In this document: positions 7,344-17,653 of the stretch, one piece after another
Position numbering within the stretch: the stretch's first letter is position 1
Layout of the letters: every line of letters starts with the position of its first letter
Assembly: GCA_001898425.1 (NCBI GenBank)
Contig: MKTV01000060.1
Location: 83,519 to 120,676, forward strand
Reading direction: 5' to 3'
Source of the DNA: Rhodospirillales bacterium 69-11
Lineage (GTDB): Bacteria > Pseudomonadota > Alphaproteobacteria > Acetobacterales > Acetobacteraceae
DNA length: 37,158 bases
Translations under genes and position numbers: made by a program
The notes under the pieces: model-generated
Told to the model about the DNA's origin: nothing
Database searches by the model: none
What the model saw: only the letters and a program-made list of their open reading frames with translations

Positions 7344-9216
7344 CGGAGGTCTCCATCAGGCGGTCGCGCAGCAGCAGCGCGGCTCGTTTCAGGGCGTCCG
7401 CGCCTTCCTCCAGCCGGGTGCCGAGCGCGGTGCAGAGATGGAGCTGGCGGAAGTCCGCCGCGTCCCGGACGGCGGTGGCGGCGAGCGCGCGTTCGGCGTC
7501 GTCGGCGGCGTGTTCCAGCGCGAGCACCCGGTCTATCGCGACCAGCGCGTCGTCCTGGTCCTCGGGCGCGGGTTCGCCGGCGCCCAGCAGCGCCTTGACC
7601 CATTCCTGGGCGGCTTCGACGAGCAGGGCGGCGAGGGACTGGAGCCTGTCGAGGACCGGGGCCGGCAGGCGAGCGGGGAACTGGGCGAGCAGGAACACCG
7701 CCTCTTCCAGCTCGTCCGCCGCGTCGTCGGCGGCGTGCATCAGCGGCAGGAACGCGGCGTGGTCGGGGCGCCGCCGCACCGCGGCCCGCACGTCGCTCAC
7801 CAGCCGGTCGGCATCGCGCTCGAACGCCGCGGCGCGGGCCTGCTGGCGTCCGAGCTCCGGCTCGCCGATCGCGAGCGCACCGTCGCGGGCGAGGCTCGCC
7901 AGTTCGAAGACGAGGCCCGCATGGTCGGCGGCGATCCCGATCAGCCGGCTCTGCTCGTTGCTGAAATGCCGCGCGAGTTCGGCGCGGATCCGGTCGCGCA
8001 GCAGCGGGACGGAGCGCCGCTCGCGCAGGCAGTCGGTCGCGCCGGTCAGCACGAAGCGCAGGAAGGCCTCGGTCTCCGGCACGCCCAGCACGTCGGAGAG
8101 CCGGTCGCCGAAATGCATGGCGGAGCCTGCGGCGGACTCGATCGTCTCGTTCACCAGCTTCGCCCCGCCCAGGGCGAGGAAGCCGCGATGCCCGATCTCC
8201 TGCTCCGCGGCCCAGCGCAGCAGGGCGAGCCGGGGCACGCGGGGGAGGAAGGAGCGGAGCTGGCGGCGGGCGCGGTTCCAGTCGATCAGGAAGACGAGGC
8301 GCGACCCGAGGGTGCCGAGGAAGGATCGGCAGGCGGCCTCGTCGGGGGCGGCGAGCCGGCCGGTCGCCATGTGGAAGGGCGTGCCGCCGAGCTGGCCGGA
8401 CTGGGAGAGGGTCCAGGTGACGGGATGGGCGGAGAGCACGTCCTGGAAGAAGCGCAGCCGTTCGGGATGCACATCCGTGTAGGTCACGGTGACGGCCAGT
8501 GCCTCGACATGGACCACGAGGACGTGGGCGTCGGTGGTGCCGATGTCGTTCTGGATCACCAGCCGCTCCCCCTGGCGGGTGGCCGTGGTCGCCAGACCGG
8601 GATGGTCGAACTTGAGCGGCGCGGTGCGGTTGAGCCCGGCCATGAAGGCGGCGACGCGCGGCCGGTCCTCGGGCGCGAGGCCGTAGGCAGCGGCCCCGTC
8701 GATCCGTTCCTCGGCCAGCGCCGCCTGCTGGGCGTTGAGCGCGCGGTGCAGGTCCATCACCAGCCGGTGGAGGCTGTCGGCATCGGGCCGTGCCTGGGTG
8801 ATGGCGGCGAGGGTGGCGGGATCGAGCGCCTCGTCCTCGCCGGCCGGCAGCGCCGCGAGCAGGGCGTCGAGCCGGGGCTGGATGGCGGGATCGGCCGCGA
8901 TGACCGGCGCGGCCATCGTGCGGAGATCGGCCGCGACCCGGCGCAGGAGGGCGGCGAGGCCGGGTATGCGGTAGCCGCCCGCGTCGCGGCGTGTCGCGGC
9001 GGGCAGATCGTCGAGCGCCTGGTCCTGGATACCGCAGGCCAGCCGCTCCCGCCGGAGAATGGCGGGCGGCTGCCCTGGCTGGTCGGCATGGGCGGCGGCC
9101 ATCTGCAGCAGGGTGAACACGTATTTGACGCGGTCATTGGCGGCGAGCGCGGCGTTCACCGCGGCGGGCTGCCGCAGCCCGGCTTCACCGATCGCGGCGA
9201 GGACGTCGGATTTCAT
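7336..9216 (-). CDS. Uncharacterised large protein with PhoU/DUF47-like C-terminal helical region
   Basis: The product is 626 residues from ATG 9216, which has GGAG about 9 nt upstream; a TTG at 9285 would add 23 residues and is less likely. Residues 1-400 match nothing I can name; NDRVKYVFTLLQMAAAHAD near 30 looks conserved. Residues about 400-626 are helical with repeated acidic motifs (AFERDADRLVSDVR, HAADDAADELEEAVFLL, EHAADDAERAL, EEGADALKRAA), the pattern of PhoU/DUF47 proteins, where such residues bind metal or contact phosphate-transport partners. No signal peptide or clear membrane segment is seen. The stop overlaps the start of the PPDK-like gene, so the two are made together and probably act together. 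The PhoU resemblance is moderate; a function in phosphotransfer or phosphate sensing is inference. Confidence 0.7.
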   Translation of the reverse strand: MKSDVLAAIGEAGLRQPAAVNAALAANDRVKYVFTLLQMAAAHADQPGQPPAILRRERLACGIQDQALDDLPAATRRDAGGYRIPGLAALLRRVAADLRTMAAPVIAADPAIQPRLDALLAALPAGEDEALDPATLAAITQARPDADSLHRLVMDLHRALNAQQAALAEERIDGAAAYGLAPEDRPRVAAFMAGLNRTAPLKFDHPGLATTATRQGERLVIQNDIGTTDAHVLVVHVEALAVTVTYTDVHPERLRFFQDVLSAHPVTWTLSQSGQLGGTPFHMATGRLAAPDEAACRSFLGTLGSRLVFLIDWNRARRQLRSFLPRVPRLALLRWAAEQEIGHRGFLALGGAKLVNETIESAAGSAMHFGDRLSDVLGVPETEAFLRFVLTGATDCLRERRSVPLLRDRIRAELARHFSNEQSRLIGIAADHAGLVFELASLARDGALAIGEPELGRQQARAAAFERDADRLVSDVRAAVRRRPDHAAFLPLMHAADDAADELEEAVFLLAQFPARLPAPVLDRLQSLAALLVEAAQEWVKALLGAGEPAPEDQDDALVAIDRVLALEHAADDAERALAATAVRDAADFRQLHLCTALGTRLEEGADALKRAALLLRDRLMETSGG

Positions 9217-12163: not shown

Positions 12164-12253
12164 GGAGAGATGGCCGAGCGGCTTAAGGCGCACGCTTGGA
12201 AAGCGTGTGTACGTGCAAGCGTACCGTGGGTTCGAATCCCACTCTCTCCGCCA
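12164..12253 (+). tRNA. tRNA-Ser (anticodon GGA)
   Basis: The acceptor stem GGAGAGA (12164-12170) pairs with TCTCTCC (12243-12249). The discriminator is G 12250 and the CCA end is encoded (12251-12253). The D-arm begins TGGCCGAGCGG. The anticodon stem CACGC/GCGTG encloses loop TTGGAAA with anticodon GGA at 12198-12200, which reads UCC and UCU. A long variable arm with a GTACG/CGTAC stem marks it as class II, and the T-arm is GTGGGTTCGAATCCCAC. Confidence 0.97.
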
Positions 12254-12396: not shown

Positions 12397-12828
12397 ATGC
12401 GAAGTCACAAAGATCATTTCGGAAAGCGGCTAAACACGTCCGCGGATGCCAAGAAGACCATGCTGGCGAAGTTCGCCGCCAGGCCGCCGGCAGATGATCC
12501 GGCAGTCCTCGAACAGCAGGCTGCCCGGAAGGCCATTGCAGCCGCGCGTGAGGCTCGGGCGGCTGACCGCAAGGCCGCGCGCGAGGCCGAGGCAGCCAGG
12601 CTCGCCACAGAACGAGCGAACGAAGCAGCCGCGCAGGAAGCCCGCAAAGCTGAAGCGGCTGCCCGCGAAGCAGAAGAAGCCGCTCGCGCCTCGGCGGCCG
12701 CAGCCGAACGCGAAGCGCATGCGGCAGCGATCGGTGCCGAGAAGAAGGCGCGCGCTCTTGCCTTGGCGGCAGATCAGAAGGCGGCGCGCGATGCCCGCTA
12801 CGCGGCCCGACAGGCGCGGCGGCGCTAG
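12397..12828 (+). CDS. DUF6481-family alanine-rich helical protein
   Basis: The 143-residue product starts MRSHKDHFGKRLNTSADAKK and has the DUF6481 pattern: a short N-terminal motif (TMLAKFAARPPADDPAVLEQ, then QAARKAIAAAREARAADRKA), a long Ala/Glu/Arg/Lys-rich helix, and a conserved end DQKAARDARYAARQARRR. The family is common in alphaproteobacteria and has no known function. The composition predicts one long soluble charged helix or coiled coil. It has no signal peptide. ATG 12397 is the only start giving the family N-terminus; upstream the same frame runs through the tRNA. The gene is monocistronic. Confidence 0.8.
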   Translation: MRSHKDHFGKRLNTSADAKKTMLAKFAARPPADDPAVLEQQAARKAIAAAREARAADRKAAREAEAARLATERANEAAAQEARKAEAAAREAEEAARASAAAAEREAHAAAIGAEKKARALALAADQKAARDARYAARQARRR

Positions 12829-12889: not shown

Positions 12890-12964
12890 GTCCGGGTGCT
12901 GTGTCCGGGTGACGTGTCCGGGTGCCGTGTCCGCTCCCCGGACACGAACGTCCGCAACACGGAC
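12890..12964 (+). promoter_or_regulatory. Phased GTCCG array, candidate enhancer (UAS) for the NtrC-class regulator
   Basis: GTCCG starts at 12890, 12903, 12916 and 12929, an exact 13-bp period, the first three as (G)TCCGGGTG half-sites. Two full palindromes GTCCG-N5-CGGAC follow, at 12929-12943 (extended to GTGTCCG/CGGACAC, 12927-12945) and 12950-12964. Their centres are 21 bp apart, two helical turns. The array ends 42 bp before the -24 element of a sigma-54 promoter, the usual place for activator binding. That the regulator encoded at 15466-16809 binds here is inference. Confidence 0.6.
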
Positions 12965-13006
12965 ATGCCCTGCAAAATTTGCAAGCAATTTCAACGATCC
13001 ACGTAC

Positions 13007-13020
13007 GGCACGCGGCTTGC
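13007..13020 (+). promoter_or_regulatory. Sigma-54 (-24/-12) promoter
   Basis: GGCACGCGGCTTGC matches the RpoN consensus (t)GGCACG-N4-TTGC with the obligatory GG and GC separated by exactly 10 bp. Transcription should begin near 13032, about 30 bp before the first gene of the operon. It precedes an operon that itself encodes an NtrC-class, GAFTGA-containing activator, which raises the likelihood. Confidence 0.72.
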
Positions 13021-13062
13021 CATGACTCCTCCCGGGCACCAACCGCCCAAGGAGGTATCATG

Positions 13063-13848
13063 ATGAGGCTTCGATCCGCTCTCCTCGCCGCCACGCTGCT
13101 CGCCGCAGCCGGAGGTGCTGCCTGGGCGCAGACGACCGCCGCCCCCGGCACCTATGACGTCCAGCAGCTGCCGGTCACGAACGGCCGCGTCGCCGCGTAC
13201 AGCCTCACCCCGCGCGGCGACGTCGACGGCGTCATCCTCGACGACGGCACGCAGGTGCTGCTGCCGCCGCATCTCGGCACCCAGCTAGTCTTCGCCGTGA
13301 AGCCGGGCGACGCGGTGACGGTGCATGGTCTGAAGGCGCGTGCGATCCCGGTGGTGCAGGCCATGCAGGTCACCGACGACGCCTCGGGCAAATCCGTCAC
13401 CGATGACGGACCACCCGCCGCCCCGCCCGGACCACCCGCCGCCCCGCCCGGACCGCTGGTCGCCCCGCCCGGGCCACCCGGTCCGCGCCAGGCCGGACCT
13501 GCGCTCCAGGCGCAGGGAGAGGTCAAGGCACCGCTCTACGGCCGTGGCGGCGAGATCAACGGTGTCCTGCTCGCGGACGGCACCCAGGTTCGCCTGCCTC
13601 CGCGCGAAGCCCAGCGTCTCGCAGCGGATCTCAGCCCCGGCCAGACCGTGGTGGTGCAGGGCACCGGGATCGACAACGCCCTTGGCCGCGTGATCGAGGC
13701 CCGGGCGATCGGCCCCTCGGCCGACAAGATGGCGCAGATCGCGCTGCCGCCGCCGCCGCCCCCGCCGCCGCCGCCGGGCGGTCCTCGCATGGGACCTCCG
13801 GGCGGTCCGCCGCCCCCGCCGCCCCCGCCGCAGCCGCCCGCCGAGTGA
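13063..13848 (+). CDS. Secreted proline-rich protein with duplicated beta-domain
   Basis: The 261-residue product (262 from ATG 13060) begins with a signal peptide (MRLRSALLAATLLAAAGGAA, cleavage after AWAQ). AAGGAGG at 13049-13055 sits 7 nt before ATG 13063. Two related domains of about 70 residues follow. The first has GDVDGVILDDGTQVLLPP and KPGDAVTVHG; the second has GEINGVLLADGTQVRLPP and SPGQTVVVQG. They are joined by a PPAAPPG repeat linker and followed by a polyproline tail. The domains look like small OB-type beta-barrels and are probably periplasmic. The gene leads an operon with a sensor kinase and its regulator and is preceded by a sigma-54 promoter. It could be the signal-binding partner or the target of that system; no enzyme motif is seen. 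Confidence 0.75.
   Translation: MRLRSALLAATLLAAAGGAAWAQTTAAPGTYDVQQLPVTNGRVAAYSLTPRGDVDGVILDDGTQVLLPPHLGTQLVFAVKPGDAVTVHGLKARAIPVVQAMQVTDDASGKSVTDDGPPAAPPGPPAAPPGPLVAPPGPPGPRQAGPALQAQGEVKAPLYGRGGEINGVLLADGTQVRLPPREAQRLAADLSPGQTVVVQGTGIDNALGRVIEARAIGPSADKMAQIALPPPPPPPPPPGGPRMGPPGGPPPPPPPPQPPAE
13411..13473 (+). repeat. 21-bp coding repeat (PPAAPPG), three copies
   Basis: Units at 13411-13431 and 13432-13452 are identical and the third (13453-13473) is diverged. Each encodes seven residues of the proline-rich linker between the two beta-domains. Copy number may vary by slippage. Confidence 0.7.
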
Positions 13849-13963
13849 CATGGCCGCCGCGCAGGACCGCCCGGTCTGGCGGTCCGGCCGGCGGCCGGCA
13901 GGCAGGGAGGTCCCGGCCTCCCTGCCGTCGATCGGCGATTGGGATACAAGGGGCGCACCCGTG

Positions 13964-15469
13964 ATGCACTCGCTCCACGCCCGCCTGCTCGTGCTCTGGC
14001 TTCTCTCGCTGCTGGCATGCGCCGTGGTGGGCGTGCTGCTCGTGCAGCTCTACCAGGTCTCCAACGTGGCGCGGGTCGGGCAGGCCGAAGCGGTCATCGC
14101 CCGCGCCTGCGACCTGGTGCGGGACCGCTACGCCTTCTACGTCGCCGGCTGGCACGGACCGGTCCCGCCCGGCGCCGACGCGCGCCTGCGGACCGACCTC
14201 ACCGCCGTGGTCTCCCTCGCGCTCGCACCGGTGCCGGAGGTCGAGGGCGGCATCTGGCAGCAAGACACCGGGTCGCTCGCCTACGCCTATCCGACCTATC
14301 CGGGCTCAGGCCCCAAGACCGACCTGCCGCAAGCCGAAGCGGCGCGGATCCAGGCGGTGAACGAGCGCGCCGTCGCCGACGAGCAGCACGTGTCGCAGAT
14401 GTTCCACAGCGCCTCCGAAGCGCTCCTGCTGGAAGCCTGTCCGCTGCGCGGTCCCATCCCTGGACTGAGCGCATGGACCATGACCCGGGTGCAGGCCGCG
14501 TTCGGTTACGGGCGGCTGAGCGCCGGTCTGGGCGCCCTCGCCATTCTCGTGGTGGGCAGCGCCGTCTGCCTGACGGCCCTGGTGGTCGACTGGTCACGCC
14601 GTGTCCGCAGCATCGAATCCGGACTGGCCGAGATCGGGCGGGAGATGCCCGCCCTGTCGCGCACCGGCTCGCGTGAGCTCGACCGGATCGTCGACGCGCT
14701 GAACGAGGCCGGGCGGCGCCTGGCTGAACAGCGGCGCCGCGCCGAACACCTCGCCGAACGGGTCGCCGCCTCCGAACGTCTCGCCGCGCTCGGACGCGTC
14801 GCCGGCGGCATCGCGCATGAGATCCGCAATCCGCTCGCCGCCATGCGCCTGCGCGCCGAGAACGCGCTCGCCTCCCCCGATATCGAACGGCCGCGCCGCG
14901 CGCTGGCCGACATCCTCGACCAGATCGTGCGCCTCAACCGGCTCGTCACCGAGTTGCTGGCGATGACCCAGCGGGGCACGCCACGACCGGTGCCCGTCGC
15001 GCTCGAGACCTTTCTCGACGCGCTGGTCGCGCGGCATGCCGATGCCGCCGCCGCCGAGGGCGTGACCCTGACGACGGACTGCGGGGTGGACACTGCCGTG
15101 ATCGATCCCGAGATGGTCGGGCGCATCCTCGACAACCTGCTGCAGAACGCGGTGCGCCACACCCAGGCCGGCGGACGCGTGTGGGTCCGGGTGACGGCGG
15201 GAGCAAGCGACGATCGCCTGCGGTTCATCGTCGCCGATACAGGCCCGGGCGTGCCGCCCGACCTGCAAGCCACCATGTTCGAGCCGTTCGTCACCGGCCG
15301 CGCCGACGGCACGGGCCTCGGCCTCGCGATCGCGCGCGAGCTGGCGATGGCGCATGGCGGCGATCTGCGCCTGATGGCGGAGGGGGACGAAACGCCCGGC
15401 CAAGGCGCGGCGTTCGTGCTGGATCTCTCCCAGGCTCCCGCCCAGGCCATCGGACCCGATCACGAATGA
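13964..15469 (+). CDS. Membrane sensor histidine kinase of the NtrB/AtoS type
   Basis: The 501-residue product has a first membrane segment at about 8-28 (LLVLWLLSLLACAVVGVLLV), a periplasmic sensor loop of about 155 residues with no recognised fold, a second membrane segment at about 187-210, and a HAMP-like linker. The dimerisation domain shows AALGRVAGGIAHEIRNPLAA with phospho-acceptor H285. The ATPase domain has the N box (DNLLQNAVRHT), G1 (DTGPGVPP) and G2 (GTGLGLAIARELAMAHGG). ATG 13964 is preferred because it places the first membrane segment at the N-terminus; GTG 13961 is an alternative. The stop overlaps the next start by 4 bp. It probably phosphorylates the regulator encoded next. 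The periplasmic signal is unknown. Confidence 0.9.
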   Translation: MHSLHARLLVLWLLSLLACAVVGVLLVQLYQVSNVARVGQAEAVIARACDLVRDRYAFYVAGWHGPVPPGADARLRTDLTAVVSLALAPVPEVEGGIWQQDTGSLAYAYPTYPGSGPKTDLPQAEAARIQAVNERAVADEQHVSQMFHSASEALLLEACPLRGPIPGLSAWTMTRVQAAFGYGRLSAGLGALAILVVGSAVCLTALVVDWSRRVRSIESGLAEIGREMPALSRTGSRELDRIVDALNEAGRRLAEQRRRAEHLAERVAASERLAALGRVAGGIAHEIRNPLAAMRLRAENALASPDIERPRRALADILDQIVRLNRLVTELLAMTQRGTPRPVPVALETFLDALVARHADAAAAEGVTLTTDCGVDTAVIDPEMVGRILDNLLQNAVRHTQAGGRVWVRVTAGASDDRLRFIVADTGPGVPPDLQATMFEPFVTGRADGTGLGLAIARELAMAHGGDLRLMAEGDETPGQGAAFVLDLSQAPAQAIGPDHE

Positions 15470-16809
15470 CCACGATCCTGATCGTCGACGATGACGCCGC
15501 CCTGCGCGCCGGCCTCGCCGAGACGCTGTCCGACCTGGGTCATGGGACCGCCGAGGCGGCGGACGGCGCCGCCGCACTGGAGTGGCTGCGCCGCGGACGG
15601 GCGGACGCGGTGCTGCTGGACCTGCGCATGCCGGGGCTCGACGGCATGGAGGTGCTGCGCCGCATCCAGGCGAGCCCCGATCCGCCGCCGGTCGCGGTGC
15701 TCACCGCCGTGCCGACCGCCGCGAACACGATCGAGGCGATCCGGCTGGGCGCCGTCGACCACCTCGCCAAGCCGATCGGGCGCGCCGACCTCGCCGGACT
15801 GATCGAGCGGCTGCTCTCCGCCGCGGCCGCTTCGCCCCCCGGCGCGGCCGGCCCGGCAGCCGTCGAGGATGGCGAACTGGTGGGGCCGAGCGCCCCGATG
15901 CGGGAGGTGCAGAAGCAGCTCGGGCGGCTGGCGGACAGCAACGCCACGGTGCTGATCACCGGCGAGACGGGCAGCGGCAAGGAAGTGGTGGCGCGGGCGC
16001 TGCATCGTCACAGCCGCCGCGCGCGGCATCCGTTCGTCGCCATCAACTGCGCCGCGATCCCCTCCGAACTGCTGGAGAGCGAGCTGTTCGGCCATGTGCG
16101 GGGGGCGTTCACCGGCGCGCTCGCGGATCGCGTCGGCTCGTTCCGCCAGGCCGATCGCGGTACGCTGTTCCTGGACGAGGTCGGCGACATGGCGCCCGCG
16201 CTCCAGTCCAAGCTGCTGCGCGTGCTCCAGGAGCGGGTGGTGATCCCGGTCGGCGGCCGGCCGGTTTCGGTGGACGTGCGCGTGGTGGCCGCCACCCACC
16301 GGGACCTGCCGCGGGCCGTGCGCGAGGGGCAGTTCCGCCAGGACCTGTTCTATCGGCTGAGCGTCGTGCCCCTGCACCTGCCCCCGCTGCGGGAGCGGCT
16401 GGCGGACATCGTCCCCCTGGCCGAACACTTCCTGGCCCTTGCCGCGGATGGGACCGGCGCGGTGAAGCGCCTCTCGGCCGAGGCGGCCGCGCGGCTGCTG
16501 GCGCATCCCTGGTTCGGCAATGTGCGCGAGCTGCGCAATGCCATGGAGCGCGTCGCGGCGGTGGTGCGGAGCGCGGTGGTGAGCGCCGAGGACTTGGCGT
16601 TCCTGTGCGAGGAGTCGGCCAGTGGCGAGCCGACCCACTGGCTGTCCGGCACCCTGCCGGAGGCGCTGGCGCGACTGGAAGCGGCGATGATCCAGCGGGC
16701 CTTGGCGGCGTCGCGCGGGAACCGCACGGAGGCGGCGCGCGCGCTGGGAATTCACCGGCAGCTTCTGCACGAGAAGATCAAGCGGCTGGGGATCGATCCG
16801 GAACGGTAG
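15466..16809 (+). CDS. Sigma-54-dependent response regulator, NtrC class
   Basis: The 447-residue product has three domains. The receiver (about 1-120) shows ILIVDDDAALR, phospho-acceptor D52 in LLDLRMPGLDG, and the switch lysine in HLAKPIG. The AAA+ domain (about 140-370) shows the Walker A GETGSGKE, the sigma-54 contact GAFTGA, and Walker B GTLFLDEVGDM. A Fis-type helix-turn-helix closes the protein (GNRTEAARALGIHRQLLHEK). All catalytic motifs are intact, so it should open promoters bound by RpoN holoenzyme when phosphorylated by the kinase. Its ATG lies in the ATGA overlap with the kinase stop. The likely target in the window is its own operon promoter at 13007, with sites at 12890-12964. 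Confidence 0.94.
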   Translation: MTTILIVDDDAALRAGLAETLSDLGHGTAEAADGAAALEWLRRGRADAVLLDLRMPGLDGMEVLRRIQASPDPPPVAVLTAVPTAANTIEAIRLGAVDHLAKPIGRADLAGLIERLLSAAAASPPGAAGPAAVEDGELVGPSAPMREVQKQLGRLADSNATVLITGETGSGKEVVARALHRHSRRARHPFVAINCAAIPSELLESELFGHVRGAFTGALADRVGSFRQADRGTLFLDEVGDMAPALQSKLLRVLQERVVIPVGGRPVSVDVRVVAATHRDLPRAVREGQFRQDLFYRLSVVPLHLPPLRERLADIVPLAEHFLALAADGTGAVKRLSAEAAARLLAHPWFGNVRELRNAMERVAAVVRSAVVSAEDLAFLCEESASGEPTHWLSGTLPEALARLEAAMIQRALAASRGNRTEAARALGIHRQLLHEKIKRLGIDPER

Positions 16810-17335: not shown

Positions 17336-17518
17336 CTACTTGTCGAGCGCGTCGCGCACCCCGTCCTTCGCGCCCCCGACGGTGTTCTGCACCTTGCCGG
17401 CGGCCTTCTCGGCCTTGCCTTCCGCTTCCGTCTTGCCGTCACCGGTGACCTTGCCGATGGCCTCCTTCACGGAGCCCTTCACCTGCTTGGCCATCCCCTC
17501 GACGCGATCACGGTCCAT
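17336..17518 (-). CDS. CsbD-family stress protein
   Basis: The 60-residue product is a full-length CsbD-like protein: MDRDRVEGMAKQVKGSVKEA, then GKVTGDGKTEAEGKAEKAAG and KVQNTVGGAKDGVRDALDK. These small, charged, flexible proteins accumulate under general stress in many bacteria; their molecular role is unknown. The start is ATG 17518, with GAGGAGAG just upstream. The longer frame to 17638 is intergenic. It lies directly downstream of the PAS-LuxR gene on the same strand, 135 bp away, and is followed by a strong hairpin, so it is probably a short separate transcript. Confidence 0.88.
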   Translation of the reverse strand: MDRDRVEGMAKQVKGSVKEAIGKVTGDGKTEAEGKAEKAAGKVQNTVGGAKDGVRDALDK

Positions 17519-17653
17519 AACTTGTCTCTCCTCTGTCCATGCATCCCGCCGCGGTGGGGCGAACGCACGCATGTTGAACAAGGAAGGCGCCACGCGGTTT
17601 CGTCGAAGCGAACCGGCGATCTGGTGTTCCTGCACCAATCGCGACGGCCAGGA

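Follow-up and report, generated by a model that had tools for sequence, protein, structure and literature searches.

Activators of the NtrC class share one control logic: the phosphorylated regulator binds dyad sites, assembles there, and opens a sigma-54 promoter by ATP hydrolysis. Among described systems of this kind, the closest to the locus considered here are QseE-QseG-QseF of the Enterobacteriaceae (GlrK-GlrR) and ZraS-ZraR-ZraP. QseEGF acts on glmY and rpoE (PMC6075780, in the sections available). In Proteus mirabilis the system shares an operon with its target gene, which stands at the front (excerpted in PMC8745638), whereas the available sections of PMC6075780 report no autoregulation for E. 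coli qseEGF. For ZraSR, the system's own genes are given as a second target (PMC4987338, in part). Here, we analyze a candidate system of this type at positions 12,890 to 16,809 of a 37,158-nucleotide stretch of contig MKTV01000060.1 from Rhodospirillales bacterium 69-11; this whole stretch is called the window.

A preliminary description of the window had proposed a self-contained operon in which a sigma-54 promoter with a phased enhancer drives genes for a secreted protein, a kinase, and an NtrC-class regulator, the regulator closing a positive loop on its own genes. From motifs and gene content, we consider it likely that the locus encodes a two-component, sigma-54-dependent response module whose regulator acts, through the paired dyads, on an exported protein with predicted OB folds. 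We refer to this exported protein as SecA (P0001) and to its cytosolic paralogue as SecB, which are labels of convenience for this analysis only; the kinase is P0002 and the regulator P0003.

Paired dyads precede a predicted sigma-54 promoter

The predicted -24/-12 promoter lies on the forward strand at 13006..13020 (CGGCACGCGGCTTGC). Its GG at 13007-13008 and GC at 13019-13020 (GGCACGCGGCTTGC) form the GG-N10-GC motif, the GG being preceded by C rather than the usual T, and RpoN is encoded in the window's genome. Upstream are two predicted enhancer dyads without assigned strand, at 12928..12944 (TGTCCGCTCCCCGGACA) and 12949..12965 (CGTCCGCAACACGGACA), each with a counterpart in relatives. Their GTCCG-N5-CGGAC cores, at 12929-12943 and 12950-12964, are 21 bp apart from start to start, and the dyads start at -78/-57 from the -24 element. 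If transcription starts about 12 bp past the -12 GC, near 13032, the dyad centers would fall ~96 and ~75 bp upstream of the start, in agreement with the 75 to 100 bp of the preliminary description, whose coordinates for the promoter, the GTCCG array, and the dyads are also right.

The array consists of GTCCG at 12890, 12903, 12916, and 12929, spaced by exactly 13 bp, within a forward-strand tandem repeat of 3.4 copies (GTCCGGGTGCCGT, 12890..12933) that supplies extra half-sites. The term "phased" suits the two dyads, whose 21-bp spacing is about two turns; it does not suit the array, since a 13-bp step does not correspond to an integral number of turns. The array, a local tandem repeat, was not seen in relatives whose promoter regions were read and is probably no part of the conserved switch.

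To gauge chance, the 220 bp before secA were shuffled 500 times with dinucleotides preserved: 0.2% of the shuffles attained the sigma-54 score and none the dyad-pair score (0/500). The exact dyad occurs in the window at these two places only. In the 6.48-Mb genome, the dyad pair, with no sigma-54 site required, occurs at two places (the window and C105), with no good sigma-54 site near the C105 pair (best 14/22), and the pair together with a sigma-54 site was found at the window place alone (control 0).

The exact dyad occurs 17 times in the genome; two of these sites are in the window, and eight of the other 15 were read (L001 to L008). Two candidate targets among the loci read were rejected: L004, where the dyad lies inside a coding frame and the sigma-54-like sequence 124 bp further on, and L002, which has a different, looser dyad and a weak sigma-54-like score of 17. 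The other six loci yielded no candidate. The L004 site itself (1624-1640, TGGCATAGCGATTGCA) is sigma-54-like and has no dyad pair; by eye, the gene after it resembles a transporter substrate-binding protein. At the other exact TGTCSG-N5-CSGACA sites (C71 in L166, C107 in L167), no sigma-54 site with dyads was found.

The promoter architecture recurs with the regulator in relatives

We surveyed the promoter regions of 22 loci, the window included, with an N9 pattern for the relatives' dyads (L181, L072, L191, L186, L187, and L189 lie outside this survey). A sigma-54 site scoring at least 18/22 with upstream TGTC-N9-GACA dyads is present in 21 of them, and in the 20 of those 21 that have a SecA-type gene, the site starts 47-65 bp before the start codon. 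The dyad pair has a shuffle P of ≤0.006 in 20/22 loci. Its position is nearly fixed: the dyads start about -90/-68 from the T of TGG in 16/22 loci, at -100/-68 in L157 and L188, and at -101/-80 in L179. Such steps of about one turn would keep the dyads on one face of the DNA. Conservation of both the dyads and the -24/-12 element in orthologous operons, which the preliminary description had named as a check, is therefore borne out. L158 also has, ahead of its divergent phosphoesterase operon, a sigma-54 site and, at -91, a dyad.

A search of 398 genomes of the phylum for the composite pattern (dyad pair and sigma-54 site together) turned up four places in three genomes, namely the window's, G641 (twice), and G622, and none for the control. 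One G641 match adjoins that genome's regulator orthologue. In the other, on another contig, the dyads stand at -91/-69 upstream of an operon of phosphoesterase, MFS, ArsB, and YdcZ genes, a set found elsewhere after SecA. The pattern is present in 2/7 genomes with the regulator, the window being one of the two, versus 1/391 without it (P 0.0008); with the window left out, it is present in 1/6. The strict pattern misses most orthologous promoters, since 5/7 regulator genomes have no match. Because promoter and dyads recur at the orthologues and before the G641 operon of the same gene set, the dyads are very probably the enhancer of the co-encoded regulator. This, together with the RpoN gene, favors the proposal of the preliminary description that the co-encoded regulator is the activator.

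We also scored a site for IHF, using the consensus YAANNNNTTGATW. A perfect match lies 30-31 bp before TGG in 4/20 loci (L179, L180, L182, and L183), and the score summed over the 20 loci is 133, versus 114.2 (sd 2.8) for shuffles. No IHF site is claimed for the window, where 6/9 positions agree, a score reached by 87% of shuffles.

Predicted protein products of the operon

The regulator gene (15466..16809, forward strand) encodes receiver, Sigma54_activat AAA+, AAA lid, and HTH_8 domains, with the receiver, AAA+, and Fis-type helix-turn-helix (HTH) all above the Pfam cut-off. The HTH segment GNR..AAR.LGI.R is common to the aligned regulators with small variations. The best whole-length curated model is TIGR01818 (NtrC), at 432.8 bits versus a cut-off of 558.6; the GlrR model gives 348.4 (cut-off 763) and the ZraR model 338.5 (cut-off 760).

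The gene of the membrane-bound sensor kinase (13964..15469, forward strand) overlaps that of the regulator by 4 bp (ATGA), and the open reading frames agree with the three genes and the overlap first described. The kinase has HisKA and HATPase_c domains and scores 133.8 bits against the ZraS model (cut-off 479). Among the 25 best models each, of 80 and 120 matched, neither regulator nor kinase reaches a curated NCBIfam cut-off. The periplasmic part of the kinase has no Pfam assignment; it carries two cysteines (residues 49 and 159) that are both present in 17/18 aligned kinases, L183 being without the N-terminal part as read. An AlphaFold2 model of this sensor (pLDDT, the predicted local distance difference test, of 81.2) predicts an alpha-beta fold between two long helices, whose succession of helices and strands would be compatible with a domain of the PDC/Cache type. 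The kinase gene of G033, a relative from the same family, has an internal TGA (L071, 3360-4787).

SecA is encoded at 13060..13848 on the forward strand, with a putative signal peptide judged by eye, two predicted OB-like domains, and a proline-rich linker and tail. No Pfam or NCBIfam family matches it above cut-off, and searches of PHROGs and of PDB sequences gave nothing convincing (best PDB E 0.063). A relative, P0008, matches DUF5666 (PF18914) below cut-off (22.5 versus 27 bits); SecA itself has no such match up to E 0.1. A model from a 10-row alignment (pLDDT 84.4) predicts two beta domains, which in Foldseek align mostly with OB-fold proteins (best E 3.3e-4), with low whole-length template modeling (TM) scores; the match to 4dam_C has a TM of 0.57 by target length. 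SecA is thus predicted to be a tandem OB-fold protein, as a fold class only, and its matches to SSB and RPA are read as a sign of this class and not of DNA binding. No lipobox was seen in SecA. The window's genome holds one SecA, the sole other match having an E of 0.02. SecB, the paralogue found in relatives, starts with MHWIDP or MHWLDP and has no signal peptide.

A structured gap separates secA from the kinase gene

Between secA and the kinase gene, a 115-nt gap (13849..13963, forward strand) is predicted to be strongly structured, without a T run (-86.8 kcal/mol, z -4.15, computed for 13840-13980). A crude scan found no sigma-70-type promoter between the two genes. The folded gap may damp read-through from secA or set a lower level of the kinase-regulator pair. 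An alternative, longer kinase frame opens at 13850; we place the start at 13964 on the strength of the relative L163, which has a similar beginning at that point.

Upstream of the promoter region, a DUF6481 gene ends at 12828, and a tRNA-Ser (gga) gene lies between it and lepA (12164-12253). Downstream of the operon, a CsbD-like gene on the minus strand (17336-17638) adjoins a PAS-LuxR regulator gene. In Methylocapsa (L185), too, the annotation shows a CsbD gene close to the orphan SecA gene.

Gene neighborhood and distribution of the module

In the neighborhood survey, matches to MFS, kinase, and regulator below 150 bits were dropped. A SecA-type gene is present in 21/24 regulator loci, the window included, and not in L072, L073, and L181. 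The kinase-regulator pair lies upstream of SecA in the same direction in 17 of these 21 loci; SecA is on the opposite strand in two (L160 and its near-duplicate L191) and comes first in only two, the window and L154. Within the stretches read, the 24 loci also contain MFS (16), ArsB/CitMHS (12), YdcZ (8), and phosphoesterase (5) genes. None of the SecB, phosphoesterase, or transporter extras is present in the window or in 19 kb partly upstream of it (L168), transporters not having been searched for genome-wide. The operon can hardly be called self-contained as a type, since relatives add the cytosolic paralogue and the phosphoesterase/transporter set. SecA- or SecB-type genes without a regulator match in the stretch read occur in L185-L187 and L189; L186, L187, and L189 carry solitary SecB genes, on plasmids of Caballeronia and Paraburkholderia. 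In L072, neither kinase nor SecA was matched in the stretch read around the regulator orthologue, which is followed by a sigma-54 site and, at -89, a dyad. In L154, on a Methylocystis plasmid, a second sigma-54-like site (7429-7445) precedes an MFS gene, with no dyad found nearby.

The regulator has no match at orthologue level in 32 other genomes of the window's genus (best 6.7e-102, 46%), and G033, of the same family, has a match of 65% (1.5e-165). With the window included, it was found at 1e-108 in 2/385 genomes of a class sample and at 1e-112 in 7/398 genomes of the phylum. At 1e-90 or better, it occurs in 15/72,556 plasmid records, from Caballeronia (5), Paraburkholderia (5), Burkholderia (2), Bradyrhizobium (1), Methylocystis (1), and Acidiphilium (1). 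This patchy and partly plasmid-borne occurrence suggests transfer, with a module that would move between bacteria. The tree joins the window with L163 (support 94/87), leaves most deep forks open, and does not itself show transfer; its rooting was not used, and L032, among the three outgroup rows, sits on an extreme branch, probably through translation of the wrong strand.

DISCUSSION

From gene content, motifs, and their recurrence and geometry, we infer a course of phosphorylation, binding, activation, and, in the window, feedback. Specifically, the membrane kinase would sense a signal through its periplasmic part and phosphorylate the NtrC-class regulator. The regulator would then bind the two neighboring TGTC-N9-GACA dyads, separated by about two helical turns and located 57-78 bp upstream of the -24 element (68-90 bp in most relatives), and would drive sigma-54 polymerase to form the open complex. 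SecA, the exported protein with predicted tandem OB folds, would be the core target, which accords with the earlier suggestion that the secreted protein is an output; in relatives, the same promoter type would also serve SecB and the phosphoesterase-MFS-ArsB/CitMHS-YdcZ set. In the window, read-through past the structured gap into the kinase and regulator genes could add positive feedback, as a local arrangement; self-activation would be possible just at the 2/21 loci where SecA is in first place, the window and L154. SecB and the transporter set suggest an envelope or efflux response, and the class of signal is a guess.

Several results weigh against this reading. Single dyads are not enriched: with one mismatch, the window has 6 matches versus 6.2 expected, and the exact dyad has 17 in the genome versus 54 for the reversed control. 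The pair without the site is no commoner than its reversed control (one forward and one reverse). G622 has the composite pattern without a regulator orthologue at 1e-112. Several of the surveyed loci are closely related, and the 22 are not independent events. Individual loci also deviate: the dyad pair of L153 is weak (P 0.028), L180 has a single good dyad (at -90), the second dyad is weak in L182 and L183, the sigma-54 score of L182 is reached in 5.6% of shuffles, and L181 has both dyads and no good -24 element. In L185, a SecA-type gene has no such promoter, no dyads (P 0.572), and no regulator match nearby.

The absence of single-dyad enrichment, and the fact that the GTCCG array is a simple tandem repeat, could mean that GC-rich sequence with a tandem repeat mimics binding sites and that there is no promoter at all. 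We give this explanation almost no credence, given the recurrent geometry, the shuffle tests, and the second operon that the pattern retrieved in G641. It is also conceivable that promoter and dyads are real and serve an NtrC-class activator other than P0003: at least five regulator matches, with E values up to 1e-60, are present in the window's genome, and G622 offers the pattern without the orthologue. The architecture, however, accompanies this regulator in other lineages, and its association with regulator genomes, to which the window contributes one of the two cases, points the same way, making another activator improbable.

A third explanation is the closed loop of the preliminary description. 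On this view, the regulator's main role is to activate the operon that encodes it, and SecA works with the kinase as a partner in the periplasm, the part that QseG plays for QseE. The promoter is indeed followed by SecA, kinase, and regulator genes in one direction in both the window and L154, the crude scan found no separate sigma-70-type promoter for the kinase, and both parts have precedents, QseG as a periplasmic partner (PMC6075780, as available) and zraSR as genes under their own regulator (PMC4987338, excerpt). However, the arrangement is not that of 19/21 loci, which speaks against a self-activating loop as a general feature, and in the window itself, the strongly folded gap stands between secA and the kinase gene. 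We regard this loop as possible but doubtful, and prefer the module with SecA as its core target.

The control logic proposed here is textbook, and specialists would find nothing unexpected in the promoter by itself. What the comparison adds is a well-defined enhancer whose offsets vary little and a predicted regulon, and the interest lies in what this regulon holds, namely a protein family of unknown function (SecA/SecB) and a set of transporters. A literature search limited to open-licence papers found none on the system, and SecA and the transporters are likewise uncharacterized there, as far as searched. As a speculation that is on the whole unlikely, the module could be a mobile, undescribed sigma-54 regulon in which one kinase-regulator pair, its periplasmic sensor retaining two cysteines, controls the exported tandem OB-fold protein and its cytosolic twin together with a phosphoesterase and transporters of three types. 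A ligand, noxious or signaling, would be captured outside the cell by SecA and handed to the kinase, SecB would have the equivalent role inside, and the transporters would remove the ligand.

Comparison with known systems

By its predicted domain set and a -24/-12 promoter with dyads, P0003 would be classed as an NtrC-class two-component activator of sigma-54 promoters. NtrB-NtrC itself differs in several respects: NtrC is the best curated whole-length model for the regulator, below its cut-off; the kinase here is membrane-bound, unlike NtrB; and the NtrC dyad TGCACC-N4-TGGTGCA (PMC4987338, in part) differs from the dyads found here. QseE-QseG-QseF shares with the locus a kinase, an exported protein, and an NtrC-class regulator, as well as tandem TGTC dyads above a sigma-54 promoter, and the two gene orders seen among our loci mirror the difference between E. 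coli and P. mirabilis in QseEGF (PMC6075780 and PMC8745638, in the sections available). The QseF sites are TGTC-N10-GACA (PMC8745638, PMC4987338, both in excerpt), whereas the spacer is N9 in the window and its relatives; QseG is an outer-membrane lipoprotein (PMC6075780, likewise), whereas SecA has no visible lipobox and a predicted OB-like fold; and P0003 stays below the GlrR family cut-off. ZraS-ZraR-ZraP, too, is a two-component system that depends on sigma-54 and acts on an exported protein (PMC4987338, in the part available); the ZraR and ZraS cut-offs are not reached here, and SecA, for which no Pfam family passes its cut-off, gives no evidence of the zinc-binding ZraP type. Altogether, although the system is not filed as a member of these families because their cut-offs are not reached, it works like QseEGF and ZraSR-ZraP.

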